Origin: Thuidium tamariscinum | Lineage: Eukaryota; Streptophyta; Bryopsida; Hypnales; Thuidiaceae | Length of the DNA stretch: 64,000 nt | Direction of reading: 5' to 3' | Assembly: GCA_947034885.2 (NCBI GenBank) | Contig: OX344752.2 | Location: forward strand, 20,731,386-20,795,385 | In this document: piece after piece, positions 2,608-45,838 of the stretch | Position numbering within the stretch: position 1 is the stretch's first letter | How the letters are laid out: each line of letters starts with the position of its first letter | Translations under genes and position numbers: made by a program | The notes under the pieces: generated by a model | The model's database searches: none | Told to the model about the DNA's origin: nothing | What the model saw: only the letters and a program-made list of their open reading frames with translations

Positions 2608-3858
2608 TCAACAAATTTGGAAGTAATTGATCTATGTCATTTGGAGTTTGCATTTCGAAGTCAAACCGTATCAAACAAATGGTATATAATTAGTTTATCT
2701 CGTGAATGGTGCAAGTGTAATGACTATGGTCCAATATGTAAACACATGTTGGTTGTGAAACAAATTGTTGATGATGAATATCAACATTTATTTGATTTAC
2801 TACCGGGCATATATGAACCTCGTGAATTTATCCACAACTTGGAAGATTTTGATGAAGATGCATGTGAGGATCCTAGTGAAGGTCCAAGTGGAGGTTTGGG
2901 TGAGGGACCAAGTGGAAGTTTTGAAGAGGGTCCAAGTGGAGGTCCAAGTGAAGAGTAATGTAGAGGATTCGGTGCAAGTGTAAATGGAGATCCCAACGAA
3001 GATACAAACAACAAATCTTCCATAAATCCTAATGACGACAATGAATTTATAAAAGAGATGTTTTTCAATATTTCAAATATGACGACATCCCAAAATATTC
3101 CAAGGGAAAGATATGCAAGTTTGACAATAGAGAAACGCAATGCCTTGAAGAGGGCTGGAGAAATATTTATGGCAGTTTTTCAAGAGTCTATGGAGTTGGA
3201 AGTGAGACCAAGTCGAATACTCATGCCAAGGGAAGGTGGAAGTATCACCCCGCTACAAAAAAATGTGACAAACACAAGACTTGGACATGGGAGTCAAAGG
3301 AAAAAACGAAGATTACATTATGAAAATTCAAGTGGTGGACAAATAAGTGTGGTACAATCTCTAAGACCTAATGGTGGAATCAAGTTACAACGCCGAAGAC
3401 AATTTGTGCAAAAGAAACACACAAGGGTGAAATTGCCTAAGCTTTGGAGAAGTCAATGTCCTAATTGTGAGGGATTGAACATATTTTTCAATGGAGTTAC
3501 TGTCATTGAGTGCCACAATTGCTAGTATACAATAGTAAAAGATGGTTATAATATTACAGCAGAGAACAATAAACACTAGAAGAAAACCATGTTACAATTG
3601 CTGAAAACACGTCATATAGTTTGTGTTGAGTTCCTGTTTTAGAATGCAGTCAAAATGCAGTGAAAACACAAAAAAACGCAGAAAAAGCATTTTTCTGCGT
3701 TTTTTTGTGTTTTCACTGCATTTTGACTGCATTCTAAAACAGGAACTCAACACAAACTACATGACGTGTTTTCAGCAATTGTAGCATGGTTTTCTTCTAG
3801 TGAAATGTGAGGTTGAGCAAGATGTGGAGTTGTTTTTTAAGGAGTTGAATATATATTA
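2608..3858 (+). pseudogene. Relic of a SWIM-zinc-finger transposase-like protein
   Basis: Frame 2617-2958 encodes a SWIM-type motif: C-x-C followed by C-x-H, seen as CKCNDYGPICKH, with a W shortly before. An acidic Ser/Gly/Pro-rich repeat (EGPSGG) follows. After a frame break the second frame, 3058-3525, is Lys/Arg-rich and ends in a C-x2-C / C-x2-C zinc-ribbon-like pair (CPNC and CHNC). This layout resembles the C-terminal part of plant MULE or FAR1-type transposases, which carry a SWIM finger after the catalytic domain. The catalytic core is absent, so this is a 3' fragment. A 229-bp foldback (3574-3802) is inserted near the end. Apart from the stop at 3523-3525, the frame before that insert continues into 3803-3858, where it ends in TAG. 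Confidence 0.6.
3574..3802. mobile_element. 229-bp CACTA-type foldback MITE
   Basis: Almost the whole element is one inverted repeat with its centre near 3688. The ends read CACTAGAAGAAAACCATG and its complement, and the flanks carry a 3-bp duplication AAA (3571-3573 and 3803-3805). CACTA ends with a 3-bp duplication are diagnostic of the CACTA (En/Spm) superfamily. The arms differ at very few positions, so it is either young or kept uniform. No coding capacity. Confidence 0.9.
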
Positions 3859-4885: not shown

Positions 4886-5229
4886 CACTACTAAAAACAG
4901 GGGGTATAAATGACTGCAAAAAATGACTCAAAACCAGTCATTTCGGAGTAATTCGGACTGATATGACTAAAAAATGACTTCAGCCCCTGCAGTCATTGTG
5001 GACAAGTCATTCTTTAAATGACTGCGGGTGTATTATCACCATCCATTTGGAAATTGGATGACTAGTAGATGAATCTGTCTAAGAGATAAAGAAATTTTAC
5101 TTGAAAATTTTGTGAAAAGGATGGGCAGCTGACCATTTTTGGGGAAATTTCACCTACGTGGCTATCCACGTAGGTTAATTTATAAGTCATTTCTAAGTCG
5201 CGGCATAGTTGAAGTTTTGGTGACGTGTC

Positions 5230-5290
5230 AATCATTGTTCAGTTGTCAGACAGTCATTGTTCAGTTGTCAGACAGTCATTATTTAGTTGT
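5230..5290. repeat. Subterminal tandem repeats inside the CACTA element
   Basis: About three copies of a 24-bp unit built on CAGTCATTGTTCAGTTGTCA lie in the left subterminal part. A second short array (unit near 20 bp, AGTCATTTGGCAGTTGCAGG) lies at about 6148-6190. Arrays of this kind are typical transposase-binding sites in the superfamily. Confidence 0.75.
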
Positions 5291-6703
5291 CAGAGAGTCT
5301 GACTAATGCTGACGTGGACAATGATGTCAGTAAAAATAAAGTCATATTCCAGTTGTGATATAGTTACGTTTAAGGGCGGGGTCTCTGACACGTGGCACTT
5401 AATAACAAGAGGGTTCTGAAGTTGCATCTTAGTCATTTTTGAGACATTTTTGCTTTAGGGTGAGTTATATTCTAGTTATCTCTTCCTTCTCTAAAGTAGT
5501 CATTCTACAGTCACATATGAATACATTCAAAGTTTCACAATGATACACCATATGCCATACACATGCAATACACCATACAACATATACAATACATTATATA
5601 TAATATATCATGTACAATACACCATACACCATATGCCATACATCATTTCAAAATCCACTTAATATGTGGATATGAATAGATGAAATGACAAGCCTTTTAT
5701 AGAGGAAGAATACTAGTAGGCAAGACAAAGCTTGTGGGATATGTAAAACGCAGGAATTGCATTACAAGTCATATTTTTAACCTCATTGAGGCATAGTAGA
5801 CTAACTTTTTTCAAAAAACTTTGAACTAATTAAAGTTGGGGAATCAATCTCACTTTCATCTCCAAAAATTTGTTTTAGATTTTAAGCCTCTAATCAAAAG
5901 TTATAAATAAAATTTGCTAAAAGGTTTAAAAAGGATTGGCATAGGAAGAGTACTAAGTTCAAGCACCTATAATTTGACTTTCTCCAAACAAAGATGTATG
6001 TGCTATCTGTAAGCCTCTTTACTTTATACAAAGAAAGTGTGACAATGAATGTACAAGATTTTTGCAAATAACACAATGAATCATAATGCACAAGGTGCCA
6101 AAGTAGCAGTAGAGTAGTTGTATAGTAGTTCAAAAGTATTGAGTAGTCATTTGGTAGTTACAGGAAGTCATTTGGCAGTTGCAGGAAGTCATTTTGTAGT
6201 AAAACTAAAGTAGTGGTGGTGGTATTTGCACAAGGAAAAAATGGAACTTAACAAATGTCATTGGATTCATCTAAATACCTTACTGTATGTTTATTGGGAC
6301 ATTTACTAATTCAAATGTAAAGCATATGAAGTGTTCAAAAGTAGTTCATTGACAATGGCACAAATTTTCAAAAGTCATTGTTGGCATAATGGCATATAGA
6401 TAGGAGTTTAAACAAATCATACAAATGGATCCTAAGGAAGAATTTTTTTTAATGCTAACAAAGACAAAGGCCATTTGTAATGCATCATTTCAAAAAAAAA
6501 GACAAAAGTATTCTATTGGAAATTTTTTTGAAAAGAAAATGAAGAAAATAAACAAGGAGTAGAATTATTGGAAAGACTAAAAGAAAAGTTATTAGCTCAA
6601 GAAAGGTATTAGGATATGAGTGTTAAAAAATCATAAATCAAATGAATATAGTTGCATCCTAGTAATTTTTAAATGATTGTTGTCTATGTTAGCATATTCT
6701 CTT

Positions 6704-6861
6704 TACTACAAGAAAATAGGGGGATAAATTTAATGACTTGTTTACAATGACTACATTGGCAACAATGACTACAAAATGACTACAAAATGACTATTTTGTA
6801 GTCATTGTTGTTGGTGCAGTCATTGTGAACAAGTCATTTATCCCCCCATTTTCTTATAGTG
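6704..6861. mobile_element. 158-bp CACTA MITE nested in the larger CACTA element
   Basis: The left end is TACTACAAGAAAATAGGGGG and the right end complements CACTATAAGAAAATGGGGGG; the first base of the left end has changed from C to T. Flanks carry CTT (6701-6703 and 6862-6864). The interior repeats AATGACTACA, the same core as the host element's subterminal motif, so the two elements are related and may share one transposase. Confidence 0.85.
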
Positions 6862-7925
6862 CTTTTCCATCTTAAGAACAAAATTTTTTAGCATAGCCCT
6901 ACAAAAGACTTTATAGCAATTCTTAAGTTGCATAGTAGTGAAGTACAATTACATCCTTGGGAAGCTCACTTAGTGTATCTATCATAAATCATGTACGAAT
7001 AAGTCATTTTTAGACTCTTTAAATATATATTTTTTAATAAATTATGATTTCAACCTATAATTTTGAACTTTGTTCAATAATAACTATAGATTTCTATTGC
7101 CAAAAAATACCATACACCATACACTATATGCCCAACTCAAATAATATATGAAATGATTTCTAGAATAAATTGAGAAATGAACTAAAATGGCTCAATTAAA
7201 AATTCAAATATTTCTTGAGGATACATTTAGATGACCATTGCATCAATAATGAAGAAAAATGAACTTTCAATAAAGAGTTATTTTTAGAATTAAAAAATAA
7301 ATTAGACCATTTTTTCTTGTATAAAATAGGGGTGTGAAATTATTTTCAGCTCTACAATGTATTTTCATATCATGCTCTACAATGTTTTTCATATCATGCC
7401 CATCTTTAGAGCAAAAAATTACAACATGACTCTATAAAAGACCTTGCAGTCATTTTAGAGTCACACAGTAGTAAGGCGCAGTCGCATTCTAGTAGTCTTA
7501 GAACAATTTCCATCCACGTCAGCAAGCTGCCCTGCCTGTCCTTTGCTTAAAATATGGAGGTATAGCCTTTTTGTAACCCTTTAGTCATTTTCGAGTCATG
7601 AAGTAGTGAAATTAAGTTACAATCAATAACTATGTCATACTCAGTAGTGACTCTAGCATCCATGCTGATTTTTTCCTTCCTTTTGTGCTCTTGTTAATGG
7701 CAATCTGAATGAAAAAATGTAGATGAATTTCGTTGTCTATCATGTCTTTATCTGCTAGTCGCACTCATGACTGAAAAATGACTGAAAAATGACTAGGACT
7801 ATGTAAATTCAGCTGGTTTGGTGCAATTACAGAGGTACCAGTCACTATTTAGTCAAACCGGACATTTAGTCATTTCTAAGTCATCCCTCTACAGTCATTT
7901 ATACCCCTCTTTTCTAGTAGTGATA

Positions 7926-9529: not shown

Positions 9530-10880
9530 GATTGGTTACCGACAGAAGTGATCTTCACGACGCCGGTACGACTTGCACGGAATGTTAGAAACACATCCAC
9601 TTTTGTTCACTTTTGCAGGGCTATGCGAGGCGATCGGTAATGGTCGAGCTTGCTTGGCTTCTGGCACTTGCTCCAGGTATTCTGATCCCCTAGCTCGTCT
9701 TAGAATTAGGTCTTGATCACACCGCGTATCTTCCTTCTCTGTTGTAGTGATTAGATGTTAGGTTTACGAGACTGTCCTGGTCTGCTCGGGGTGGGGGGTG
9801 TCTGATGGTGGTCATTCGGGGGATGGCAGAAATTCGAGCTTGAGTGTTGTAGGTCAAACTGCATATTGTTAAGGACCACACAACCTTCAAGAGCGGCGAA
9901 GCTTGAGGCGTAATCCGATATCATTCATGTCGAGTCCTTTCATTCAGATTTGTATTGTTTGTTTGATCGACGGACTTCAAGTCTACCCCAAACCCTAAAG
10001 CCGTGAATTGATCCGTTTGCGTCTGAATTCGGACTTGGCAGTGTGGAGAATTGATGTAGCCTCCATGCACCAGGCTGTCTTAGGTTGTGGATACAAACTC
10101 ACGCACGGTGAGTGATGAAAACCATCGTAGTATAGTTTGATGAGGAGAAAATGTTATGTTGTACTGATGTTCAGGACTCAGGAGTTGTAGCGTACTATTT
10201 CATAGTAAACTAGATCACGCACAACACACTCCATGGTTGAGATGAAGAAGAGCGAAGTGGTATTGAGCTTGGCAGCGCAGTTGACTTCTTGGAGGGCAAT
10301 CCTCGTCCTCCACACTTGGGCAACGTGCAAGCCATGGCAGCGATGGGACTTGCACCAGTATTCAATTTTCCTCGCAGATTGTTTGAACCAGTCACAGCAG
10401 CCCGTCTGGGAATCAGCTGATGGTGCTGCTGGAAGAGAGCCCCGGAAAGTTAGGAAGATTCGATGGGAGAGACGGTGGGAGGGAGGGCATGTAGATTTTG
10501 CCGAAATTGAAACCGGAGATTGCTATGATGATGATGAAGTCGGTGCAGACAATTCAGAGGGGATGGATCCAGCAGGGTCGCCATCGTCAACTCGGAAGGT
10601 GGCGGATGCAGCACGCCCTTCTTCGTCTCCCTCTGCTGCTATTGTCCCCGGCTGGCGGAGATTTTTCGGTCGTGGAAATGGCGAATAAATCATGTACTGT
10701 ACAATCACCCTCCTGACGTTTCCATACTTTCTATTTCAAAGTTGAAACTCACGCTCACCGGAGATTTGAAATTGCTTGCTGCTATCAGCTTGAAAATACA
10801 TCAAATCAGAAACTGTGAAGTGTATTGGAAAGGTTGAGCAGTCTATTTTCAAGATATATTTGCAAAACTTTGGCATACTA
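9530..10880 (+). repeat. Copy B of the four-copy gene-like repeat
   Basis: Aligns with copy A from 1878 and with copy C from about 14590. Its leader part is closer to A than to C. It includes the leader, one open frame (10233-10688) and about 190 bp of 3' sequence also present in copy C after its stop. The homology may run on to about 11130. Confidence 0.75.
10233..10688 (+). CDS. Hypothetical protein, copy B (151 residues)
   Basis: I do not recognise this family. The start codon is conserved in all three copies that keep this region and is followed by MVEMK. Residues 1-60 are the best-conserved part and contain a hydrophobic, Trp-rich stretch (SWRAILVL, TWATCK, FLADCLNQSQQ). The middle is charged and differs from copy C. 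The tail has the shared block MDPAGSPSS, then a Ser/Pro-rich part and a short basic end. No signal peptide or known motif is visible. An upstream GT site (ACGGTGAGT near 10106) suggests an intron in the leader. The frame stays open in two diverged copies, which argues weakly for coding, but a non-coding transcript cannot be excluded. Confidence 0.45.
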   Translation: MVEMKKSEVVLSLAAQLTSWRAILVLHTWATCKPWQRWDLHQYSIFLADCLNQSQQPVWESADGAAGREPRKVRKIRWERRWEGGHVDFAEIETGDCYDDDEVGADNSEGMDPAGSPSSTRKVADAARPSSSPSAAIVPGWRRFFGRGNGE

Positions 10881-13301
10881 AATTTTTTTGAAAGAATACA
10901 AGAACTTGTCTATGTATGCTACAAGTCTACATCTACTACTTCCATCTTGGGCAGAAATTACAACATGAATTCTCTGTTGCATCGGTGAAATGAGAACTTC
11001 AAGCACTTCCATAGATTTTCCTTCACTTACTCTTTGCAACAATTCAATGAGTTCTTCCGTATTCCTACGTATGGGTTCATTCTCAATGTGGTCTTTTAGT
11101 TTTTCTATAGAATTTTTGCAGGATGAATATTAAGGAAATTTGTCAACCATGTTAAGTCCTTCATATTGAGTGAACACTTTGCAATCTCTTGCAAAGATTA
11201 GAATGTTTTAATCTTGCAAGTAGATTCAAAGAAAGAACTTCAATATTCTATTTGATAAGATTGAGTCAAGTTGGCAATTGTAAGAGAGATGGATACAAAC
11301 AAGTGTAAACCTATTGAAGGTGATTGTGTTGTATAGTAGGGTACCAATCAAAATGGTGTTTTTGAATTTGTAGAGAAAGAAATTCTAATGTTGCCACCTT
11401 TGACACTCTCCCAAGGGCTGAAAAATTGTTTTTTTACCATGAGAGTTTTGTCATGAGACCATCTCTATGTTGATAATATATGTGCTAAATTTCAACTTCA
11501 AAAGACTTAGTCAAAAAAAGGTATTCAAAATCTACCAACATGTGAAGGTGTAAGGATGATTTTTGACACCCATTTCAAATTTTGACCTAAAAAATGACAC
11601 TATACTAAGGGCTAAAAGATCTTTCTCATAGGGGAGATGGATGATCAGGTGTCTCATGGATGACATTATAGAATTTTAAATACCAATGAGTTTTTGGTGC
11701 ATTGGATGAATTAATGGATGTTCATACATTATTATAATAAGTGTAACTAAAAGCAACCTTAAGCTCTTATAATTAGAAAGAGTACATTTCATACAAAATT
11801 TTATAAATGTCAATCTCCAAAAGAAGCTATAATTAATTGTAGCTAGTTTAACTTTTAATAGACTAGGTTTTTTTCAAAACTAATTTTTCAAAATGTACAT
11901 TTTTGGTATATTGAACACAATTGAAAATAAAAATAATGATCCAATTAACAATACAAAAATGTAGTAGACCATTTTGGCAAAGTGACAAAAATTTCAACCC
12001 AATATAATTTCATGAATTGCAACATTATTATATCTAATATAAGGAAAAAAAAATTCTTGCCATTGTAATTCAACTAGCACATTGCATCATTGAATACTAT
12101 ATTTTACTACATATAATCATGCTAAATTTCAAAAGCAAACAAAGAACTATTTCCCTCTAAATCATCTTGCAAGTCAAAGGGATCAAGATACCCAAAAAAT
12201 TCAAAGATATTAGCCATTTGAAGGGTGAATGGTAGGTGGCTGTGGATCTATATATTCTCATGACAGAAATTCTCTCTTCATCTTGGGCTCATCAAGTAAT
12301 TTGACAAATTAAGGTAGTATTTTCATAAATCATCACTTTATAAGTTTTTGGTTGTTTTTGATGGGTTTATAGGGTACAAAATAATTTTCAGTAAGTTTTT
12401 AAGGGAAGAGAAATTTCTACGGAATCTAGAAAAAGTAGTGCCATATTTTTCAAAGCTTTCATGAAGTAATAATGAATTTCCAAAAGAATGTGTTGTATAC
12501 ACCTATTATTGATCATAGACCTTGCAAAATGTAAACATGCACAGATTGAAAAAAGATACCGCTTTACTAAAACCAAGCATTGTAATGTTCTTAAATCTAA
12601 CCTTTCTTATAATAAATCATTACTTCTTATTTTTTTGCATCCATAAATAGGCAATTCACTAAATAAATATCATTTTCTTAAATAGATTGCATTATTGTCT
12701 ACATTCTTAAAAAGAGATTGATTGTAGTTCTTATATCATTGTGATGTATCCATTTAAAGACCAAGCATTGCCTATATCACCCCTTTTTATAGGGGTAGTT
12801 TGAAGAAACATGTCGAAATTATAGCCAACTACTATCCTCAAGTCTTGAAAAGTGGTTTTGAGCTAAAAAAGGAGTTTACGTAAGGTAAGGTAATTGCACC
12901 TAATTGCATCTCAATAAGCAAGTGAACCAAGTTCTAATTACTAAATTGAATTTTCAATTTTTTTAAGAATTTATTGAAAGTCAAACTTGTTGAAAGTCAA
13001 AAGAGCATTCTAAATTCTCTTCTTGTGCAATTTTGGTCTTTGAAACACCTGAGAAGTGAGTCTTAGAAATGAATTTTCAAATTGTTGAAAATCAGTTTAT
13101 CCAAAGCATCGTTAATAGAGAGAATGCATTTGAAGTGAGAATCTATAAGTATTGGTTTTTGAAAGGGTTTGGAGTTGGGTGCAAGTACCTTAACCTCTAA
13201 AGAATTTTTTTTTAAAGGTAAATTGCCCCAAATTGCTATCTTTGGTTTATTGAACACATTTAAAAATAAATAAATAAATTTCATTCAATTGTATTAAAGT
13301 G
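10881..13301. other. AT-rich DNA, no gene seen
   Basis: Long A/T-rich stretch with short frames only. Positions 11385-11600 hold a diverged reverse-orientation copy of the 8590-9165 repeat unit (CTTTGACACTCTCCCAAGGG). Positions about 13150-13290 resemble 17850-17960, another old dispersed repeat. Confidence 0.5.
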
Positions 13302-13638: not shown

Positions 13639-13649
13639 ACACCATTATG

Positions 13650-16430
13650 GCAAAGAGTGGAGAAAGTTTTGATTCCATGGATTGCAAGATTATTTAATTC
13701 AATGTCAGTAAGAGAAATAAGTTTTTTCTAACCCTTATGAGTAGGATGAGCAAAGTTCAAGCTCTCTTAAAGTATAACTTTTGCACTGCTCAAAATTTAG
13801 CATCCACATCGTTGAGCACTACAGCCCTGTTATTTACTCTCAATCATGCCAAATTTCTAAACGAAACGAGGGGTCTACCTCCCTCTAAATCACCCTGCAA
13901 ATCGAAGCGATGAAAGAACCCGGCCAACACAAGGTTAGGCATCTCGAAGGGTTAAAGGATCGTCAAAGAACTGCTGGGGGTGGTCACGGTGGATCGATAC
14001 ACTTTTGTGACAGAAATCTCTCGTGGGGTTTCTGCAAACGCTCTTGGGAGCCTGAATTTGATGACGGTCAAATAAGAAATCCACCCTTATGAACTGAATC
14101 ACTGCGCAGAGAGAATGGAAATGTGAAATTGCAAGCAATCGGAGCATGAAGGACTTGATCTACGCATGTAGATCATAACCCACAGAAAACATCTGAATTG
14201 GGACAGTGTCCGACTGTCCGTACTCCTTTCACGCAATTCCCTTCCTCTTAGACTCTTGGCCGGCAGGCTGGCCTGGGTAATTTCTAGCTGTTGTCTTCAT
14301 CTTGGATCATGCCGTGTCACCGCAGGCTCCTCTTCTAACGCCTGGGACTCTTTCTCAGAACCATTTTCACGCAATTCCCTTCATCCTGGGGTGAGTGAGG
14401 TCTTGGCTGGGGAGGTGCAAGTCGTCTGACTGGCTCACCTGGCGGAGGTGAGCATAGTTTCAGTTGTCACTGGATCAATCCGTGTCTCCGCTGGCTTCCC
14501 TTTCATTGCACAGGAATTTCATCCTGAATTTTCCGGCTCGATGTGCGTTTGCATGAAGTTTGAAGATAAAGTAACCCTGCTGACTGGCTATTGGTTACCG
14601 ACAGAAGTGACTTCACAAAGTCGGTGCGCTTCTTACGGAATTCCTTGAAACCGATTACCGTGTGTTAGAAACACATCCACTTTTTTTTTCACTTTTGCAG
14701 GGGTGTCCCGGTACGGGGTGAGCGGTAATGGTCGAGCTTACTGTGGCTTCTGGCACTTGCTCCAGGTATTCTGATCCCCTAGCTCGTCTTATAATTGGGT
14801 CTTGATCACACCACATATCTTCCTTCTCTACTGTAGTGATTAGTTGCAAGCCTTGCGAGACTGTCCTGGTCTGCTCGGGACAGAGTGTACATGTCTAATG
14901 GTGGTCATTGGGGGATGGCAGAGATTCGAGCTTGAGTGTTGTAGATCGAATTGCATATTGTTAGGGACAACAATACCTTCAAGAGCGGCGAGGCTTGAGC
15001 AGTAGTCGGCCATCATTCATGTCCAATCATTTCATTGAGAATTATACTGTTTGTTTGATCAATGCTAAACCCTAGAAAGCCGTGAATTGACCCGCTGGCG
15101 TCAAAACTCGAACTTGGCAGTGTGGAGAATCAGTGTAGCCTCCATGCACCAATCTGTGTTATGTTGTGGACACAAACTCACGCACGGTGAGTGATGAAAA
15201 CCATCGTAGTATAGTTTGATGAGGAGAAAATGTTATGTTGTACTGATGTTCAGGACTCAGGATCGGAGTTGTAGCGGACTATCTCATAATAGACTAGATC
15301 ACGCACAACACACTCCATGGTTGAGATGAAGAGGGGCGAAGTAGTATTGGGCTTGGCAGCGCAGTTGACGTCCTGGAGGGCAATCCTCGTCCTCCTTCAC
15401 ACTTGGGCAACGTGCAAGTCATGGCAGCGCAAGGACATCTACAGGTATTTAATTTTCCTCGCAGATTGTTTGAACCAGTCACAGCAGCCCGTCCGGGAAT
15501 CGGCTGGTGCTGCTGCTGCGATTGAGTCCAGGACAGTTGGGAAGGGACGGCGGAAGCGACGGTATGCAGATCTGGATGGGCCTGGCGCAAATCTTGAACC
15601 CCAACTTGGTCCGCGTGGTCCTACATTGAAGAAGCAGGTAATGAAGGAATTGGACTGGCTTGACCTGCATCTGGGGCTGCAACCTGCGGATTCTGTTGTT
15701 ACCCCACGAGATTTCGAATGGGAAAAGGAGACAAGAGCAGGTGACAAGGATTCTTCCTGGGTGAAACCATTTTTGGAGGAATGCCCACCTGAACCCCCAG
15801 AGTCTGATGGAGGAGAGGTGTTAACGGATATAACCTCTCCAGAGGCGATGGATCCAGCAGGGTCGCCATCGTCAATTCGGAAGGTGGCGGATACAGCACG
15901 CCCGTCTTCATCGTCTCCTCCTGACTCTGGCTGGTGGAGCTTCCTCTGTCTTGGAAACGGCAAATGAATCAATCATTGAACCACCTACTACCATAAGTTT
16001 ACACACTTTCTATTTCGAAGTTGAAAGTTGAAACTCATGCAAACCTAAGATTTGAAATTGTTGCTTTTAGCTCAAAAATCCACCAAATCAGAATCGGAAA
16101 GGTATTGGAAAATGTATAGGAAAGGTCAAGTAGCCTATTGTGAACATATAAATCGTATAAAATATTTTGAAAGAATATAAGAATTTAGCTAGTATTGCTA
16201 CATATTTACCATCTAGTACTTCCACCTTGGTCATAAATTCATCATTCATTCTATAAGATATTGGTCAAATGAGAACCTCAAGCATGTCCATATATCCTCT
16301 TTTTATATTCTTTGCATTGATTCAATAATTTTTTTGTTATTCTAAGGCATGGACTCATTCTAAATTTGGTCTTTTAGTTCTTACTATAGAATTTCTATAG
16401 GGTGATTATCCTTGTGTAGGATTAGATTGT
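13650..16430 (+). repeat. Copy C, the longest copy of the four-copy repeat
   Basis: Aligns with copy A (200-2607), copy B (9530-10880) and, more distantly, copy D (18275-19400). It lacks the miniature element present in copy A: the empty site is at 14248-14250. The leader has acceptor-like sites such as the TTTTGCAG ending at 14700, and a donor-like ACGGTGAGT near 15186. The 216-codon frame at 15317-15967 follows. Confidence 0.75.
15317..15967 (+). CDS. Hypothetical protein, copy C (216 residues)
   Basis: Function unknown. Residues 1-60 match copy B closely (MVEMK start, SWRAILVLLHTWATCK, FLADCLNQSQQPV). Residues about 75-185 differ: basic first (GKGRRKRR), then a mixed stretch with KELDWLDLHLGLQPA and an acidic, Pro-rich segment (PPEPPESDGGEV). 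The tail carries the shared MDPAGSPSS block, a Ser/Pro run and a Trp-containing end. Copy B is about 65 residues shorter in the middle. No transmembrane segment, signal peptide or catalytic motif is evident; the basic and acidic low-complexity parts would fit a nuclear or disordered protein, which is a guess. The leader probably contains introns. Confidence 0.5.
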   Translation: MVEMKRGEVVLGLAAQLTSWRAILVLLHTWATCKSWQRKDIYRYLIFLADCLNQSQQPVRESAGAAAAIESRTVGKGRRKRRYADLDGPGANLEPQLGPRGPTLKKQVMKELDWLDLHLGLQPADSVVTPRDFEWEKETRAGDKDSSWVKPFLEECPPEPPESDGGEVLTDITSPEAMDPAGSPSSIRKVADTARPSSSSPPDSGWWSFLCLGNGK

Positions 16431-16755
16431 GCTATTTTATGCAAAGGGTGAAATTAAATGGAAGTTATATGTAAGTTTTTTGTGTTGTATTTGACTATTG
16501 ATTTGACAAATCACTTAAGCTAGTTATGAAGTTCAAGTAGAAACTTAACTAAGGTAACTACATCTAAGCTATTGAGCATTCATTGTTCCTATTATGAAAC
16601 CCTTTTTTTTTGTTGGATCTTGTTGGAAGTTAAAGAACTATTTAGATACTCTTTTTAATTATACATTCAATTTTCGGACACTAAAATATTGAACAATGAA
16701 TTCTCAAATTGTTAAAAATAGGTACATCTAAAAGCAACCCTAGGATTTTGTAAAT

Positions 16756-17835
16756 GGGTGAGTTCAAGAAAGACTGACCACTTTGGAGCACTTTGGAAAA
16801 ATGGCTCTTGTTTGATGCTATAACTATTGATTGATGAATCCAATGCCCAAACCAAAAAAATATTTCTAGAGTTTAGGATGCCAATGATATTCTATATTTT
16901 TTTTAAATTTTAAAAAATCATTTTATATTTAAAATTTATTATTGTTAATATGTCACACTTTCAAGATTAGGAGTTTTTTATTTGGATGAGTGGTTTAAAT
17001 TTATTATTTTTAGTTGAAATTTCTGTGGTATGTTCTTATAGTAGGTAGACATGCCCCTACCAAGGGGAACCAAAAAAAACATTATTTTATAACCTCTACA
17101 TGAGTGCAAATAGGCCTCCCTTGCGCGCACACTTCTAAACATTAAAAATAGTTTTGAACTCATTTTTTTAGTCAAACCTCATCACCAAGAAGTCTTCTCA
17201 AATGGCCAATTTTTAGTTTTGTTCAAAATTGTTTTTCCTATTTTTTATAAATTAAAACGTCAATCTATGTATTTTCTAGGATAGTTTTTGGACATTGAAA
17301 AACTGTCCTAGAAAATACATAGATTGACGTTTTAATTTATAAAAAATAGGAAAAACAATTTTGAACAAAACTAAAAATTGGCCATTTGAGAAGACTTCTT
17401 GGTGATGAGGTTTGACTAAAAAAATGAGTTCAAAACTATTTTTAATGTTTAGAAGTGTGCGCGCAAGGGAGGCCTATTTGCACTCATGTAGAGGTTATAA
17501 AATAATGTTTTTTTTGGTTCCCCTTGGTAGGGGCATGTCTACCTACTATAAGAACATACCACAGAAATTTCAACTAAAAATAATAAATTTAAACCACTCA
17601 TCCGAATAAAAAACTCCTAATCTTGAAAGTGTGACATATTAACAATAATAACTTTTAAATATAAAATGATTTTTTAAAATTTAAAAAAATATATAGAATA
17701 TCATTGGCATCCTAAACTCTAGAAATATTTTTTTTTGGTTTGGGCATTGGATTCATCAATCAAAAGTTATAGCATCAAACAAGAGCCACTTTTTCCAAAG
17801 TGCTCCAAAGTGGTCGGTCTTTCTTGAACTCACCC
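16756..17835. mobile_element. 1.08-kb full-length foldback element, copy 1
   Basis: Two arms of about 535 bp face each other around a loop of about 8 nt near 17297, so the element is almost one continuous hairpin. The ends read GGGTGAGTTCAAGAAAGAC and its near-exact complement. Flanks carry AAAT on both sides (16752-16755 and 17836-17839). The arms are nearly identical: a 65-codon frame occurs in both with one residue changed, as expected of mirrored DNA rather than of two genes. No transposase is present. Copy 2 lies at 42296-43371. GGG ends with a 4-bp duplication do not match a superfamily I can name with confidence. A transcript would fold into long dsRNA. Confidence 0.92.
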
Positions 17836-17994
17836 AAATAGAAGGAATACATTTTAGGCAAGAATATGTAGGGTCCAAGTTTTAGAATGAAATTGAAATT
17901 AGGTGCAATTACCTTAATTTGTGAAGAGTTGAGGGTGTTTTCAAAAACTAACATACTTTGGTGCATTGCCTACAATGAAAAATATCGAAGCTTA

Positions 17995-21309: not shown

Positions 21310-21489
21310 TATAAGTGTCTATAATGTTGAAAGTTAACCTTCTATAATTACAGTACATCTACATTGTAAATACCTATATTATAGATTTTAATTTTACAAG
21401 CACCTTATCACATTCTATAGTTGTAGCATATCTACTTATATATATAGTCAAAGATCACATGCTCACACTTTCATGCTCACATACTAGCA

Positions 21490-23150
21490 CCATTGGAAGA
21501 CATTGTGTTTGTAAAACACTAGGTTCATAATACTTAAGTAATTTTAGGTTTACATTAACAACAAATGAAAATTTAGTGTTGAGATTTATACTTTTCAATT
21601 GATAAGAAGATTCATGTAAGAGTTGTAGATCACACCTAGTGGAATCAATTATAACCTGTAATTGTCTAAGTGACCATCAAGAAAATAACACCCTATGCAA
21701 GATATTTATATTAAAATCCATTGTATGTTTATATGCCACCTTCTTTCTCTAGTCTTTTTTTAAAAAAAATTTTAGAATTGAATGCAATTCAAAAACTATT
21801 AAACATGCACTTTTATGACTCTTAACTAAAGTATTGCACTTTTTTGAAGTTATCATATGGAAATGTTTAACTTTGATTTTGATACAATTTGGAACTATGT
21901 CCTTTCCTACATGTTTCACAAAATCTCTTATTTAGATGGAATAGTAAATTACATGACTTATAGAGGAAAAATTTGAAGGAAACAATCCATACAAGAATCT
22001 TAATTTTGATTACAAATTAAGATTCAAGATTGACAAATGTATTTTGAAGACATGTTAGTAGGTTTTGAGTTTGATTCAATGTCAAATCACATTCAACAAT
22101 TGTTAAATAAAGACTTTATTTTTGAGCAATTGTGAAAAACTTCTCTTCAAATTTATTTGTATTGCCAAGGAGTGATAGCATTCTTCAAAGGAAGTTGCTT
22201 ACCTTTTACTTTACGGAATTTGAAGAAATTTTTGGGACTGAAATAAATACTAAAAAAGGATTTGGAATCCTAAAACAAGTTGAAGATGAGCAAAATTCTC
22301 AACATCATTTTTGTTCTTCATTCCAATTGTAGATAAAAAATTGATAGTTTTTTCTAAATTTTTGGTATCGACTTTAATTGTCCAGATAGTCATTTTATTT
22401 CCAAAATATGGTTTACATATCAATTGTCAACTTTTGATTGTTGGTACAATTCAATGAAGTATAAAGTCTTTAAGAGAAACTTACATGAAGATGAATTTAG
22501 GTGCTTTCTTGAAAAAACATGTTTTGCATCTCTTGAAAATACAATGCATAGTTACTTTGATTAGATTTCAATGTCAACTAAGAGAAAATTTCAATAATCT
22601 TTAACATGCATTATTAGGACACTAAATGAATAAACCAAGAATTGTAAAGTATCGTATCTAAATGTACCAAAATCTAAAACAAAGTTCTTAGTTATAGACT
22701 ATCATGTTTTGATTGTATACATCATGTATCATCAATAGTTAAGTTTCTGTGCCATTGGCAAGGATGATTGTTACATGTATTGTACATACTTTAGACTTGT
22801 TCTATCAACTAGCTACAAAAATTTGTTTCAAAATGTACTTATCTCCATTGCAACAAGAAAATGAGTCTCATAATAAGTATAGCACACAAAATAAACTAGC
22901 TCAAATTTGTTTACTACCTACTTTTGCCACCTTACTTTTGGCCCCAATTCTATTTGAAGAACATCCAAATTTGCTTAGAAAAACATGCAAATACGTTAAT
23001 TTTTTTGATTAAATCAAGACATTGATGCTAGAGTGGGGTAACATGTCAATCCTTCATTGGTCAATACTTTAAGTGCCACAAAATACATGGAAAGCTTGTT
23101 ATGGATTGTTTATAAGGTATTTATGACTCCACTCTTACTATAAGTAGTTC
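21490..23150. other. AT-rich intergenic DNA
   Basis: Nothing recognised. Frames of up to about 87 codons occur but have A/T-driven composition and no motif. The DRC2 3' end probably lies just beyond, around 23.2-23.9 kb. Confidence 0.5.
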
Positions 23151-23910: not shown

Positions 23911-26900
23911 CTATTCCTCTTCGACTGCCTTCTTCAACGGTGGAGGTTCCCACAAAGGTACAGGTGTTACTCGAAGCGAGTGTGGTTTTTTCTTTATGGT
24001 CTGCAGCACCAACCGATTTGCATATTATTTTATATTATGAACCAGTGGAAAGGATCAATGCAGTTACAATTAGTATCTTTCCTGGCAGCACTAATTCAAG
24101 GAACGCCCACCAGTAGGTATTGATGCTATTTCCTTGATCACGGCTCCACTCAGCGAATATTACAAAATATAATATTGCAAAAAAGAGTAAATAAAAAGTG
24201 CCGTTATGGCATGGGAAAGTGGAACCAACCACCAAGATGTTGTATTTTCTCTTCAGTCGCTCAGGGATAGTCTGGCTGTCAATAAACTTCTGCAAAGCAT
24301 TGGCAAGCTTGGTATTCTCATGACTCAGCTTGTTCCTTTCCATCTGAATGGCTAGTTTATCTAGCATGACCTGTTGTGTCATTGCATCATTGCCACTCAG
24401 TAAGAAATCAGGTAATTATCTGGCAAGTCAAGAACCAGTTCACCAAACACGACTGTAAATCAGGGCTCCAGCTAAACTGAATTATTCTTTAGTGAGGGAA
24501 TAATAAGTGTCATTTGCAACCCTAATGGCACTGTCTACCATAACCTTTTTTTGTGGAATTAGTTCAATACAGTAACATTTCGGCCTCCACTAGTACAAAA
24601 TAGTGTGACTTTGGAAAGCAGTGTCACACGCACTCATGAGATAAATCAATGAAGCTTAAAGGGACGATCTGCATGATTAGTAAAATTAAACACATGCATG
24701 GTGCATAAGTGAGGTCAACTAACCTTGTTGAAGCGTTTATAAAAGTTGGACATGAGGTCGATCTCTTCCACCTCCTCGCCAGCGTCATTGATAGCATAAG
24801 ATGCCCAATGGAAACGACTCTTGCCATTTTCTACCGGAGCGGAGTTCGGCTCAGCTGGGAACTGGGTCGGCACAACTGGAAGGGCCACTCCCAACTCATT
24901 CTCATCCCCTGCTTTCTCAGCAGCTGTAATAACAAGACGACGACTCAATTAGATATAACTCACTTATAACTCGTTTTATAACTTGCATAGAATCTTTATT
25001 ACAACTTGCATACAGTGGAAACTGATGTTGGTGCAACTGAAGCAATAGAAAAGGTGGATGGGAATGCAGGACCTTACACTCGTCTTCGGCCAGCTCTTTC
25101 TCCAGCAGTATTCCAGGCATCGTTGGGATGGCGGAACAATACAGAGGATCAAATGGAAAGACCTTCTCGTTCTCTGTCTCAAGCTGGTCGAATAAGAAAA
25201 ATTCAACTGTTTTCAAGCCGTTAGAAACCAGAAACAAACAAGCATTTGCATGCAAAAGCAGTTTAAGAAAAGATCACAAGCATCCAGGTGACGTAGATTA
25301 GTACTAAAACGTTTATGGGCATGATCCCGTCCTCTGTACTAGCCCATGACAATAAACCTATTCACGCACTCGGTTGGCTTTCAATTGGCAAGTGGTGTAG
25401 CATGACTTGGCTCAATTTCTGTGCCCACTGATCTTGAATGGAAATGGGATTGCCTATTGTGATTTCATTTAGCGGTCTACAACCTCCAAATTCGAAATTA
25501 TTGTAAGATATTTAGTCTATATATAGTGACAAACATGTGATCTCAACAAATTTGGCTCTTGTACCCCAAAGGTCTCCGTAGATCCATTCATCATGCAAAA
25601 ATCATAATCCGGAATCACGCTTAAAAGTGATGCAAAACAGTTTCCTCTACCTAATATGGAGAATGCCAAGTTCGAAGATTTACTTTGCTAACGCGTCTCG
25701 CCAAGAGAAGAACTCGTTGCGCAGTCACATACTTGTCCAATAGAGAGTTCTTGGCGTCCAAAACATTCTTGGAAACCTCCTGCGGTGAGCTACTAAGACA
25801 ATCAGATAACCTGCCTTCACTGCTTAACTAGGTTATACTTATCTGCTATTAACATGAGGACATCTCTCTCAAGGGCTTGATAATGGAGTACCTTGAGATG
25901 GTCATGCTCGTGATGGTGTGTTCGGTCCAACAGGCGCTTCAAACAGATATAGTGGCTGAGCAACTTGTCCTTCTCGTCCCTCACCTTCTTGTTCACGATG
26001 TCAAAGTTTTTGCTGTGTATAAATACACTCCGTAATGTGTTTTCATTCTCAACGAAATTCGTGTAAATAATCAGAAGCAGAGGCATAATCAGCTTCACTC
26101 ATTTCTCATACAGTTGAGGATATAAAAGAAATATGCATATGCACATGCATTCGCATATATTATGCATAATAAACTATACAAATGTACTATACGCATATGA
26201 TTGGAAAGTAGACCGACTTTGGAGTTCCCAATGAAGTGCCTTTACCCATTAGTTACAATGCGGATGCGCCAATATGCGAGCGTTTCGTGCAATTTGATGA
26301 GCTTTCGCATACGTTGCTCAATGACGCGTGCTGTGGTGGCATCTTTGGCAACCAAATTCTTGAATGATATTGTCTTCGCTTCTGTACTAGCCAGGTATTT
26401 CTGTCCCCATTAAGCAGTGAAGCATTCTGTTAACCCATAAAAGAACAAGGATTTCTAAACGACTGATTTGACTGATCACAGTGTAGAAATAATAATTAGA
26501 TGGCATCAATTTTTATACCATCAGATTATCATTATCATTATGATTAGGAGATTGAAAAAGATCTGGGTTAAAACCTGATGTGTGTGCTCAATCCGCCGCT
26601 CGAGTTCCTCGATTCCACTTTCAAGCGAGATTCTCAGCATGTTATACTCCTCAGTGTTTTTGTTCTGATGCAGAACAGTTCGAGCATTTCTGTTATAACG
26701 GTGCGTGTGACAATTCTTTTCCGCGGTCACATAATTTTAATTTTAATTCAGGTTGAAATTTTACTGTTTTGTACTGATTTCCACCAAAAAAAAAAAATTT
26801 GTTTTAGTGACACCAATTTTGCGCCTTCAGTAATAGATGAACTCCGTGTCGATATCCTTAGTTTCAACTTGTGTTGTTGCTTTAACCTTCTATAAATAAG

Positions 26901-29111
26901 TCGATTTGATAATTGAATGGAGTACACCCTACCCTTCTAGACTAACTGAACACCTCCTATCACATTATTTAATCAATTTAAACCTTAGAAGTTTACGATA
27001 AGATACTCAGCTGCCGATACTCGACAGTGAATTCATCTTGCTTAAGGCAAAAAGTGATCGAAATATAACCCCTTTGACTAAACCTAAAATTCTTTCAATT
27101 TTGGACCTCTCTAGGACCTTCCTAGACTCTATTTAGAATCCGCTTGGTGACAAAAAAGAGATAGATTCCGTTGAATAGAGCATGAAACTCAAATCTCAAA
27201 CCAGTCATATGAGCCAAACCTGAGTGTCCAGAAAGAGGTTGCACTTTTCAATGATGCAAGTGTACACAATATAGCCTCACTGAACAAACTTTAGCACACC
27301 TTTAGCTCTTCTCGGGTTGCTTCAAATACTTGTCTTCTTTCATTGATAGCTTCTTCAGCTTCAGCTTTCATTGATGCTAGCATGTCTTTCAATTCCTGCA
27401 TGCATTCACACCGATACAGCGGATTCAATTCCTCAAAAGAAATGTGATCAGACTTTTTGTTTGGTGCGCCGAGAACAAAACAAATCTGAGCAATGGAACC
27501 AGAATTGAGGTGTTTGTACCTTTTTTTGTTTATCATGATTCGTCGTCATTAGATTCCTCTCAGTCATGAACGAGTCGTGTAGACATTTCAATTGCTCTTG
27601 AAAGTCCTCCTCCATTTTCTACAGTGAACATGAGAACAATCACATGACCTTGCATTCAGCAAGACATACCTACGGTTTGAGATTTATAGATCAAGTATAA
27701 ATCTATACAGTGGTTCGAAAATACTGGTAATGAAAAACAAGTCATTCAGCATTTGATAAGTGACTGATCTGAGCATTTTAAGTGATGAGCTTCCAACTCA
27801 TTCAAATTCAAGGTTTTGAGGTGATGATTATTCTTACCCGTGTTCGCAAGTAATGAAGATCAAGTAAGGCATCCATCATTGATAAGTGTTTAATCTGAGC
27901 ATTGCGGTGTTGACCTTCCGACTCGTTCATCTGCTTCAGATATAATGATATGACATAGTCTTTCAATTCGACCTGCAAGAATCCAACTCCTCCCAAAAGC
28001 AATTCCAAAAAGGGATGATCAATTGAAGCTTGTAAAAATACATCCCAACTCATTTCTCTATTCTTCATCGATATAATGTTGTCTTAAAAGCTCCTGAAAA
28101 CAACATTCTACTTGTACTGAAAACCACGAATTTCACTGTGCAAGTCATGAAAGAGAAGAATCTAGTCCATAGACTGTGGAATAGCTAAGGAAAGTATTAA
28201 AGTCAGATGATTGAGTAAAAGTAGGGCATGGAGCCCCACCTGGTGCACATGCTTTTTTGACAACCAATCAATGTCCTGTCGCTGCTCCTCAATCTTTGCT
28301 CGGCGCATAATGTTCCTCCACTCTTTATGAATTAGCAGCATGCTTTTCGTACTGCGCTTCTCCTCCTCAATCTGAAAAGAGATTCTCTGAAAACTTATAT
28401 CCAAGACAAACAAAGATGCTACTTTTTCAGTGGAATTTTTCTGTACGAAGGCAGTGTATCGAATTCTTCCTCCAGCCACATAGTGACACGAAACCTCTGA
28501 GGCAATATCACGACAAAGACTCACCATAGCTTGCTTGAATGCTGATCGGCGATCCCGAATGGCCTTCTTCGCCATTTCTTTAGCCTGTGACAAAATGGAG
28601 TGCGACATTCAGAGGACACGTTTCTCTAACATGTAACTCCATTACATCGAAATTTAAGAATCATGCCACGATCCGAAAATTAGAAATTCGCATAAAAATC
28701 TTTACCAAAATTGACACATGGGTCTAACAATTTACAGTCCCCAGAAATGTATCAAGTTCAGAGGCAAACTTTACCTTCAGAGCTTCGAATTCGGCCTTTG
28801 CCTTCTTCTCCTCCTCAGTGAGCGGCTTCTGCAACAAACAACATACCCAACAAAACCGAGCTCATGATCCCAAAAAAAATAATTAAAACTCGAAAGCTAA
28901 CAAAGCAGCACCCAAAATCCATAACCCTAATCTTTGTTCCCAAAAAATTAGGTCAAACCCACACCAGACGAACAATTGCTTCAAACCCCAATCCCATCGG
29001 CAAGAAGATCAATTGACATCTTTCTCAATGAAAAACATCTTACATGCATAAACAGAGTTGAAGCGTTACTCTCACCTTCTTCCCCTTCTTCGGTGCAGGC
29101 TTGGGCGCCAT
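23911..29111 (-). CDS. DRC2: DRC2 (CCDC65/FAP250), nexin-dynein regulatory complex subunit
   Basis: Axonemal coiled-coil protein that, with DRC1 and DRC4, forms the core of the nexin-dynein regulatory complex linking outer doublets in motile cilia. I place 15 coding exons: 29111-29076, 28828-28775, 28584-28525, 28371-28240, 27972-27838, 27618-27520, 27395-27300, 26664-26575, 26400-26246, 26012-25892, 25779-25684, 25183-25078, 24923-24724, 24370-24230, 24000-23911. All joins keep frame, giving 536 residues; human CCDC65 is 484. The basic start is MAPKPAPKKGKK. Collinear family landmarks: HKEWRNIMRRAK near residue 65, EEDFQEQLKCLHDSF near 142, LETENEKVFPF near 360, NFYKRFNKV near 455. Residues about 385-445 form an acidic/Pro-rich stretch longer than in human DRC2. 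Introns are mostly phase 0. The exon 14 donor is uncertain by one codon (24230 or 24233). Confidence 0.88.
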
Positions 29112-29679: not shown

Positions 29680-29798
29680 CAGCATCCCCATGGCTGCACT
29701 TCAAAGCAACACTGGAAACATCCTGGGCCACTGACAAGGAAGATCAGTGGTCTAGAATGTTTACAGTATTGCTTTCAAGTGCAGCCATGGGGATGCTC
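29680..29798. mobile_element. 119-bp hairpin MITE with TAA target duplication
   Basis: The ends AGCATCCCCATGGCTGCACT pair with a near-perfect complement. The arms extend inward for about 54 bp to a loop of some 9 nt near 29739. Flanks are TAA (29677-29679 and 29799-29801), as for PIF/Harbinger elements. With few mismatches along the stem it could also be read as a small-RNA precursor, but the duplication points to a transposon. Confidence 0.85.
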
Positions 29799-29801
29799 TA
29801 A

Positions 29802-29940
29802 GGGGTGTTTCACACTACAGCCGTCCAAGTCGAGAGGTCATGGTTTTTTCAAATCTGATTGGTGAAAATCATGGTTTCTAAAATCTGATTGGTAGAATCA
29901 ACGGCCTCTCGACTTGGATGGTCGTAGTGTGAAAGACTCC
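29802..29940. mobile_element. 139-bp MITE directly abutting the previous one
   Basis: Ends GGGGTGTTTCACACTAC and the complement of GGAGTCTTTCACACTAC; the arms continue through TCCAAGTCGAGAGG. The left flanking TAA (29799-29801) is the right duplication of the preceding element, and the right TAA is 29941-29943. The interior repeats AATCTGATTGGT. Harbinger-like by its 3-bp duplication. Confidence 0.82.
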
Positions 29941-40235: not shown

Positions 40236-42291
40236 AATGAGGATTTAGGTTATATATTTCTTCGGTCCTCAAAGAGCTCCTCTTAGTTCAGAGCAATGAC
40301 GGAGGACACCTGAAGTGAAGGAGTGGACACAGACTGACACAACCAAGTTTTGGCCTATTCTTATCTGCAAGAGAGGTTTCAACTGTCATGTCGGCAGATC
40401 TCCAAGTTTTGCATACCGAAATAAGGATTAGAATGCACTTCCTGGCTTATGCTTTTACCAATTGGTAGAGCTGAGAGATGGCTAGGTGGTGATTGTTTGG
40501 AAAGTAGTTGTAAATATTTGAACATTGATGACCTGGACAGGCAGTATTTCACTTCGCCATCTCGTACATCAACTTGTGCAGATGGTGTGTTTTGTACATA
40601 TCAATTAGTGGGTTACATTCTTTGGAGGCAGTGAGGGTCGTATGGCGATGGGATTTGCCAACCTTGTATAGTAACGTTCCGGATATTCTACATGGACTTC
40701 TACATGCATAGAGAAATTTTACTAATCTTTTTACATTCTACTGGGTGTGGACTGTGTTTAACTGTTTTTTGTTGTTTTTGTTTTTGTTTTTTTAAGGCAT
40801 TCACTGTTGGAAGATAGTTGCATGAGGGCATTCGAAAGTTGATGTGATAACAATAGACTATTTTGTAATGTCTTATCCAGTGGTTGAAGGTCCTTTTATG
40901 CGTATTCCAACAGCTATTAAGTTAGCTGTTAGCTGTCACGGTTTATGAATAGTCCTATCACTCAATGTCATTAGCAGTCGGTTTCAGATTATTTTGCAAT
41001 ACGTTGATTTCGCAACATGTCGGGCGTTCACTTGTCACTAAGGAAGGAAGACCATGAACGGTTAAATCATTTCAGCCTATATTTATTGAGAAATTGATGT
41101 ATATGTCTAAAAATAAGGTGAGGAAGAAATGAAAAAAAGAGGTTTTGTTCCTCAAAGAAATAATATTTTCTTCGATCTAAATGAAGATTTTTCATTTGAC
41201 CCATTCCCATCTCATAGCTTCATCCAAAATGGCTACCAATCAAGTGACCCAATCAAGTGTGAGTTTTTTTCAAATAAGTACCCTATTGTGCCATTTTCAT
41301 TACATTAGTATTGGAAACTAATAAGATAAAGAATTTGATGACTTATTAAGAAATTTGAGTTTTTCTATTGAAGAATCATAATTCATTAATTTGTGTAAAT
41401 TAGCCCTTTAGAGAAAAATTTGGATGAAATTTTTATATCTTAAAATTATTTTCTTAAATTTTGTATCAATATTGAAGTGAAAGGTATTAGGTACCTATTA
41501 ATGTTCCTAGACACATAATAAAATTGTTCATAAAAAAGGAATTCAAGGGATGAGAGTCCATCAATACCTCAAAAATTGAATGAACTTCATTGGAATTTGA
41601 TTATAAAGAATTTAGCTTTTGATCAAAATGTAGGATCAAGAATTTATATAGGTTTTGGAATGGGGTATTCTATCTTGTTGGATAAGACATTAGTCACAAT
41701 GCTAAGAACTAATCTAATTTTGTCATTTGAAATGCTTCAATCTTTATTTGGTTTGGTATAAAACAATTTTAGACATTGTTTTAGGAATTTGAAAAGATGT
41801 TGAAGAGACAAAATATCTAATAGATGACTTTCTTCATTAATGTGGAAAGAAAGAAACTATTGGTCCAAAAATTAAATCATACTTGAATGGATTGGGGAAT
41901 GGATACTTATCACCCAAGTAACATCCTTCAAGGATTTATAATTTACATCAATTAATACTTTAAAAAAAGTGCACTATATCGCAAACAAAAAGAAAAGGTG
42001 GTTTATTTCCAAACTTTTTCAATCCCAATTTTCTATCTTTAAAATATTAATGATGGAACCACCAAACAATCTTCCAATTCCATGAACATGTAAGAGGGGT
42101 TGGAACAAATTTGAAACAACATTACAAGAAGATTGCAAAAGAACCTCAACTTCCATGCACAACCACAAAGGTAGAAGAAAGCAAATGGCATAGAACAAAA
42201 AAGGAAGCAATACTCAAGTATTAGAAATGTTAGCAAGATGCCACAAATCCAACATGATGCATACAATGTTATGGATCATTGCAAAAAACAA
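40236..42291. other. 3' region of the DA2-like gene, then AT-rich DNA
   Basis: 40236 to about 40800 is likely 3' UTR, ending in T-rich sequence near 40765-40795, with no single clear poly(A) signal. From 41050 on the DNA is A/T-rich and no gene is seen. Confidence 0.45.
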
Positions 42292-42295
42292 TTGT

Positions 42296-43371
42296 GGGTC
42301 ATTGCAAGAAACACCGACCACTTTTGTAGCACTTTGCAAAATTTGTTCTTGTCCAATGCTATAACTTTTGATTGATGAATCCATTGCCCAAATCAAAAAA
42401 ACTATTTCTAGATTTTTTTATTGCGATCGTATTTTATATTTTTTAGAATTTAAAAAAAATCATTTTATATTTAAAAGTTATTTTTGTTAATTTGTCACAC
42501 TTTCAAGATTAGGGTTTTTTTATACTATTGATTGGTTTAAATTAATGATTTTTGGTTGAAATTTCTGTGGTATGTTTTTATAGTAGGTAGACATGTCTCT
42601 ACCAAAGGACATCTAAAAAAACCTTATTTTATGACCTCTACATTAGTGTAAATAGACCTCCCTTGTGCGCACACTTCCAAACATTAGAAATGCTTTTGAA
42701 CTCATTTTCTTAGTCAAAACTCATTACCAAAAAGTCTTCTCAAATGGAAAATTTTTAGTTTTGTTCAAAATTATTTCCTATTTTTTACAAATTAAAACGT
42801 CAATGTATGTATTTTCTTTACTAGAATTCAATGTCTAAGATGATGTCCTAGAAAATACATACATTGACGTTTTAATTTGTAAAAAATAGGAAAAACAATT
42901 TTGAACAAAACTAAAAATTTTCCATTTGAGAAGACTTTTTGGTGATGAGGTTTGACTAAGAAAATGAGTTCAAAAGCATTTCTAATGTTTGGAAGTGTGC
43001 GTGCAAGGGAGGTCTATTTGCACTAATGTAGAGGTCATAAAATAAGGTTCTTTTAGATGCCCTTTGGTAGAGACATGTCTATCTACTATAAAAACATACC
43101 ACAGAAATTTCAACCAAAAATCATTAATTTAAACCAACCAATAGTATTAAAAACCCTAACCTTGAAAGTGTGACAAATTAACAAAAATAACTTTTAAATA
43201 TAAAATGATTTTCTTAAATTCTATAAAATATAAAATATGATTGCAATCAAAAACTCTAGAAAAAGTTTTTTTGGTTTGGGCAATAGATTCATCAATCAAA
43301 AGTTATAGCATTGGACAAGAACAAATTTTGCAAAGTGCTACAAAAGTGGTCGGTGTTTCTTGCAATGACCC
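42296..43371. mobile_element. 1.08-kb full-length foldback element, copy 2
   Basis: Same build as 16756-17835: arms of about 530 bp around a short centre near 42835. Ends read GGGTCATTGCAAGAAACACC and its complement, with TTGT flanking both sides (42292-42295 and 43372-43375). The two arms match each other far better than either matches copy 1, by eye only about 80 percent alike. No coding capacity. Confidence 0.92.
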
Positions 43372-43375
43372 TTGT

Positions 43376-45253: not shown

Positions 45254-45478
45254 CGCTAGTATGTGAACATAGAAGTGTGAGCCTATGAGCCTTGAGTCTA
45301 AGTATAAGTAAGTATCTTACATTCATTGAAGGTGTTTATAACATAAACACCAATAATATAGGTGTTTAGAACATAAATACACTATAATCATTCAGATGTC
45401 TATAATATAGACATCTATACTATAGGTGTATAGAATTCTAGGCTCATAGGCTTACACTTTGTATGCTCATATACTAGC
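45254..45478. mobile_element. Intact copy of the GTGTGAGCCTATG family (225 bp)
   Basis: Inverted ends of about 38 bp: GCTAGTATGTGAACATAG then GTGTGAGCCTATGAGCC at the left, complement at the right. The inner part has paired motifs (TATAGGTGTT, ATAATATAGACATC). Other copies: 20374-21489 (interrupted) and 52824-53063. No clear target duplication. Confidence 0.75.
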
Positions 45479-45838
45479 AACCATGTTGTCATCCATAAGC
45501 CACTTTTAGACTTTTGCGTTTTTACAAGGTTAACCTTTAAAACACCTAACTAGTGATTGTAGAATTCATCCCTTTTCGTACTACATGATATCATCTACTT
45601 TCAAAATAAAGAAAAAAGTGCTCACTGGAGGTGAAAAATATAGTTTGACATGATCTCCTTCTTTTTACACAAGATTCTAAAGATGAACAATTACATTTCT
45701 GTACTCTACAGAAGATTCTTTGTCATTCATTAGCCAAAAAATAGCCATAGCATAGTTTTAGACTTAATCCTAGGATGATGCCACCCTATGAATACATGCA
45801 TTCCTTGCTTCTATAGTCTCGCTTGCAATCATTTGTCG

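Follow-up and report, generated by a model that had tools for sequence, protein, structure and literature searches.

Two kilobase-long hairpin elements of a probable foldback/MITE-type transposon family, with matched changes in their arms

Foldback elements are often placed among the Mutator transposons, and PIF/Harbinger (Tourist) elements make a 3-bp TWA target site duplication. Plant foldback or whole-hairpin MITEs are non-coding and nearly all inverted repeat, with a short loop, precise ends and a target duplication. In the available text of PMC10741241, MITEs are mostly <500 bp long, and the superfamilies have the following duplications and ends: 7-12 bp for Mutator, 8 bp for hAT, TA for Tc1/Mariner (Stowaway), 3 bp with CACTA/CACTG ends for CACTA, and 4-6 bp with TG...CA ends for Ginger. 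Sola elements have 4-bp target duplications (PMC10741241, PMC3627910, as far as these sources were available), those of amoebozoan Sola2 being AT-rich and including AAAT (PMC3627910); their terminal inverted repeats (TIRs) are given as 11 to 1124 bp long, and Sola is recorded in the moss Physcomitrella (PMC10741241, PMC9033089, in the portions available). Another foldback system is Tm1 (Mutator/Foldback) of root-knot nematodes, whose TIR pairs average 93.15% identity according to the accessible part of PMC3169594. We describe here two long hairpin elements lying within one 64-kb window, by which we mean the whole stretch of DNA analysed, and compare them with these systems.

The first element, copy 1, has the following parts.

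16756..17835, no strand: copy 1, complete hairpin of 1080 bp with termini GGGTGAGTTC...GAACTCACCC
16756..17289, plus strand: copy 1 left arm, 534 nt, matching the reverse-complemented right arm at 99.06% of 534 ungapped columns
17290..17297, no strand: copy 1 loop, 8 nt, GGACATTG
17298..17835, minus strand: copy 1 right arm, 538 nt
16752..16755, no strand: copy 1 target site duplication AAAT, left
17836..17839, no strand: copy 1 target site duplication AAAT, right

A first-pass annotation had described this stretch as almost entirely one hairpin with precise ends and a 4-bp duplication, AAAT, its arms of about 535 bp pairing with hardly a mismatch around a loop of 8 nt. This description holds throughout: the limits are exact to the base, the arm and loop lengths are those listed, AAAT stands on both sides, and the alignment of the arms that the annotation had proposed gives 529 identical columns and 5 substitutions, with 4 unpaired nucleotides extra in the right arm. 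The count of 5 refers to the arms alone and becomes 8 if flanking bases are taken in. Such geometry is not a product of chance, since among 20,000 random centres placed in the window minus both copies the best ungapped arm identity was 39%. No ORF of at least 110 aa lies inside either copy among the ORFs listed for the window.

Comparison of copy 1 with its own window revealed a second full-length relative at 42296-43371, which has its own 4-bp duplication and an imperfect tandem at its left edge.

42296..43371, no strand: copy 2, second complete hairpin of the family, 1076 bp long with termini GGGTCATTGC...GCAATGACCC
42296..42817, plus strand: copy 2 left arm, paired part
42818..42849, no strand: copy 2 loop region, 32 nt, containing CAATGTC
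42850..43371, minus strand: copy 2 right arm, paired part
42292..42295, no strand: copy 2 target site duplication TTGT, left
43372..43375, no strand: copy 2 target site duplication TTGT, right
42269..42314, plus strand: left-edge tandem of copy 2 with 23-bp units, in which an outer unit resembling the 4-bp duplication plus terminus (19/23 match) is followed by the real one

The two elements share GGGT...ACCC termini, the end sequence of the family being GGGTSAKTKCAAGAAASAC; their homology runs from end to end, and their lengths lie within 4 bp of each other. Counting the columns on the loop side, the halves of copy 2 agree at 503 of 536 ungapped columns (93.8%), and 21 of the 33 substitutions fall in the core alignment defined below. 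At its turn, copy 2 carries CAATGTC, the reverse complement of seven of the eight loop bases of copy 1. Copy 2 therefore lies in the opposite orientation to copy 1, and the related centre points to one hairpin ancestor. The possibility that each hairpin is instead a pair of neighbouring, inverted insertions of a single-armed element has a precedent in transposons whose inverted pairs can form hairpins (PMC3086885, in its available part). It is nevertheless extremely unlikely here, given that a single pair of duplications frames the whole unit and that the centre is the same in both copies. These two are the only copies known, both within the window; the remaining matches to copy 1 in the window are short, 58 columns at most, and thus no single-arm relative is present there. 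Exact matches to the terminal pattern were also seen in three viral contigs, but the similarity extended over only 19-26 bp and other matches were short and scattered, so these were set aside as chance. The tandem at the edge of copy 2 may be a terminal duplication or an insertion next to an old terminus. Three of the four differences between its units consist of G in the terminus versus A in the outer unit, and the best other match to the unit outside both copies is 17/23.

The flanks of copy 1, joined after removal of the element and one AAAT, match two related unfilled sites.

11736..11789, plus strand: related unfilled site 1, spanning the copy 1 insertion point gap-free, 42/54
13068..13206, plus strand: related unfilled site 2, spanning the copy 1 junction, 102/152 columns, with gaps elsewhere and none at the junction

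Both are repeats upstream of copy 1 without the hairpin. The surroundings of copy 1 are rich in repeats: control points had a match elsewhere across their middle in 29 of 140 cases overall and in 10 of 20 near copy 1 (12-22 kb). The unfilled sites are for this reason paralogous repeats rather than the same locus in another individual; as hairpin-free paralogues, they show the limits of the inserted unit. Joined flanks of copy 2 gave no match crossing the junction. Further repeats at 203-2607, 9531-11130 and 13645-16409 are related to one another (72-93% alike), and the ORF at 2608-2955, directly after the first of them, has a weak, sub-threshold match to a SWIM zinc finger (E 0.011), which suggests that these repeats are Mutator-like remnants. 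Such a remnant may enclose or adjoin copy 1 itself, since 17993-18269 matches 1298-1574 in inverted orientation.

Near-identical long palindromes can arise by read-through of a hairpin molecule, and an assembly or sequencing artefact, with one arm read back on itself, might be suspected behind copy 1. However, the outer ends carry a 4-bp duplication of the kind that insertion typically leaves, there are unfilled relatives of the site, the arms of copy 1 differ by substitutions and indels, and copy 2 independently repeats the same anatomy with 33 differences between its halves. The second copy with its own duplication, together with the two unfilled relatives, makes an artefact very unlikely. 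The same two lines of evidence, the second duplication being different from the first, strengthen the earlier view of copy 1 as a foldback-type element with a 4-bp target duplication.

Both copies have the structure of hairpin/foldback MITEs, being non-coding with terminal inverted repeats and a target site duplication, and they form a dispersed pair with related ends (two copies in 64 kb). They share with plant whole-hairpin MITEs all the traits named above, but at 1080 and 1076 bp they are longer than most. The first-pass annotation had called this length uncommon, which is fair by the standard of MITEs; on the other hand, the same review that gives that standard also lists Sola TIRs of up to 1124 bp (PMC10741241, as far as available). 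Six plant superfamilies can be set aside. The flanks of the copies agree over 4 bp only, unlike the duplications of Mutator (MULE) and hAT elements; AAAT and TTGT are neither the 3-bp TWA of PIF/Harbinger (Tourist) nor the TA of Tc1/Mariner (Stowaway); GGGT ends and a 4-bp duplication differ from both hallmarks of CACTA; and Ginger fits in duplication length but fails on the ends, which are GGGT...ACCC. Tm1 is likewise a foldback with similar arms, but its duplications measure 8-10 bp in 45 of 53 complete elements, its TIRs are composite tandem repeats, and it has members that code for a histone hairpin or a transposase (PMC3169594, in the part available). The 4-bp duplications of the two hairpins agree with those of Sola, AAAT is among those of Sola2, and the arm length lies within the published Sola range; in contrast to Sola, neither a related autonomous element nor a transposase was seen for the hairpin family, and the 20 of 31 window ORFs that were scanned contained no transposase domain. 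Membership in Sola is unproven, a lead rather than an assignment.

The existence of two copies makes it possible to follow the history of the arms. Arm identity is 99.1% within copy 1, 93.8% within copy 2 and 85.0-86.9% between the copies; in other words, arm-to-arm divergence is 1-6% and copy-to-copy divergence 13-15%. Arms evolving independently since a common hairpin would have given similar values for the two. All four arms (L1, R1, L2 and R2) were aligned over 543 columns, of which 518 ungapped columns were taken as the core, leaving out the 16 columns nearest the loop (from 527 on) and 9 gapped columns before them. Within the core, 56 columns are copy-specific, with both arms of each copy matching, and 25 are private to one arm (4 in L1, 0 in R1, 11 in L2 and 10 in R2), whereas no variable column pairs an arm with one from the other copy. 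Over the full 543 columns, 439 are identical, 57 paired, 16 private to L2, 12 to R2 and 4 to L1; the rest comprises one arm-wise column, beside the loop, one in which both copy 2 arms are different, and 13 gapped columns. Such a distribution of paired and private columns indicates joint change of the arms up to insertion and separate drift from then on. Judged from these sequences, the source lineages appear to have homogenised their arms; a less likely alternative is that the hairpin was formed twice.

The latter scenario deserves to be spelled out. Two separate fold-back duplications of a related single-arm sequence, one in each lineage, would produce the same 56 matched differences with no need for homogenisation. 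Yet both copies turn at the same place, share CAATGTC there and are almost equal in length, both have complete termini with 4-bp duplications, and the window offers no single-arm relative from which such duplications could have started; we consider a double origin improbable. Under homogenisation, the 21 private core changes of copy 2 mean that the process leaves resident copies imperfect, which favours a resetting of the arms at or before transposition. Against such resetting, copy 1 contains an inner mismatch-free run of 299 nt (P 0.012 if indels are counted and 0.10 if substitutions alone are), which might reflect conversion after insertion. Adjacent pairs among the paired changes numbered 9, where 5.8 were expected (P 0.11), and this clustering was not used as evidence.

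Matched changes in a hairpin could also be maintained by selection on RNA pairing, as in an expressed long-hairpin locus that is transcribed and cut by Dicer-like enzymes. Folded as RNA, the plus strand of either copy would give a stem of about 500 pairs, a single one in copy 1, at -873 kcal/mol for copy 1 and -774 kcal/mol for copy 2 (predicted folds; shuffle controls stop at 1000 bases), and 24-nt siRNAs have been reported from MITE hairpins (PMC12595863, PMC3086885, in the portions available). The substitutions argue otherwise. Paired changes in the 56 core columns comprise 21 transitions and 35 transversions, and private changes 17 transitions and 8 transversions (Fisher P 0.016 for the difference). 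Transversions cannot pass through a G·U pair, and changes selected for RNA pairing should proceed by way of such pairs, hence by transitions; DNA copying between the arms is therefore preferred. Moreover, G·U is not clearly favoured among the 25 private mismatches, being kept on the plus transcript in 10, on the minus transcript in 7 and on neither in 8, and the window contains no Rfam family at gathering score. An RNA-level function accordingly seems an improbable source of the pattern. It is a separate matter that the hairpins are potential sources of kilobase-scale dsRNA: a readthrough transcript, if one were made, could possibly form long dsRNA that feeds silencing, as the predicted folds would allow. 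Private C:G transitions occur at CpG in 4 of 11 cases versus ~0.65 expected (P 0.003), and CpG observed/expected is 0.34 and 0.38 in the copies versus 0.52 in the rest of the window. Small as these numbers are, they fit past cytosine methylation, as in methylated transposons.

Taken together, the two insertions, which have the same ends but differ in their 4-bp duplications, and the unfilled relatives argue for a family of non-autonomous, whole-length hairpin DNA transposons of the foldback/MITE type, a reading in which we have good confidence. A transposase supplied in trans would recognise the ends and move the hairpin by a cut-and-paste mechanism. DNA copying between the arms would keep them alike in the source lineage, either through gene conversion or through template switching when a single strand folds back on itself in replication or gap repair; after insertion, the arms of a copy would drift apart. 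Both copies are probably now inert insertions, and a Pfam scan of 20 of the 31 window ORFs of at least 110 aa yielded no transposase able to mobilise the hairpin family. A bolder proposal, which we put forward tentatively and regard as rather doubtful, is a self-correcting hairpin transposon, in which one arm is copied from the other in each round of transposition or repair and the source re-emerges perfect. This would explain the 56 paired and the complete lack of arm-grouped core differences; if true, mutations of the lineage would enter as matched pairs only, and resident copies would gain private changes freely.

The element is ordinary in kind, a known hairpin/foldback MITE-type element, unusually long and with a clear history of matched arms, and no new system is involved. 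The titles and abstract openings listed from a limited open-access literature gave no report of this family or of a matched-arm analysis of a whole-hairpin MITE, which leaves absence unproven. The two copies nevertheless amount to a small natural experiment, suggesting that the arms of long hairpin transposons evolve in concert before insertion and separately after it. Divergence between arms could then date insertions, as LTR divergence dates retrotransposons, and a genome-wide set of copies could separate arm reset at transposition from slow gene conversion.

Both hairpins lie outside the coding stretches that could be named in the window, the nearest being 6.2 kb from copy 1 and 2.1 kb from copy 2. 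On the minus strand, the ORF at 28165-28608 matches dynein regulatory complex subunit 2 (E 4.7e-5, the sole match up to E 1), and that at 24038-24415 has four weak matches (E 0.14-0.22), three to the same subunit and one to a putative coiled-coil protein, so that 24038-28608 is a probable dynein regulatory complex subunit 2 gene by sequence similarity. An axonemal gene in a plant-like gene set suggests that the host may be a plant with flagellate sperm, such as a bryophyte, lycophyte, fern, cycad or Ginkgo. Pfam places OSCA/CSC1 channel domains in three ORFs at 57.6-59.8 kb, the one at 57607-58017 being closest to CSC1-like HYP1. The ORFs at 37036 and 39732, which had no Pfam match, presumably resemble the plant RING ligase DA2/GW2. 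No tRNA genes were found in the window.

Several other repeats share the window with the hairpin family. A complete 229-bp hairpin at 3574-3802 (113-nt arms, 2 mismatches, 3-nt loop) is also a full palindrome, but it is much shorter, and its CACTAG...CTAGTG ends and 3-bp AAA duplication mark it as a CACTA-like miniature element of another family. The 3037-bp unit at 4886-7922 has a 3-bp duplication, ATA, and is of CACTA type by its ends, CACTACTAAAAACAGGGGG...CTAGTAGTG. A Tourist-like hairpin of 139 bp at 29802-29940 carries GGGGTGTTTCACAC at the left end, is flanked by TAA on each side, and is adjoined by another hairpin at 29681-29797. Finally, 45257-45480, 52828-53063 and 21344-21498 are three copies of a further dispersed repeat, 71-77% alike.
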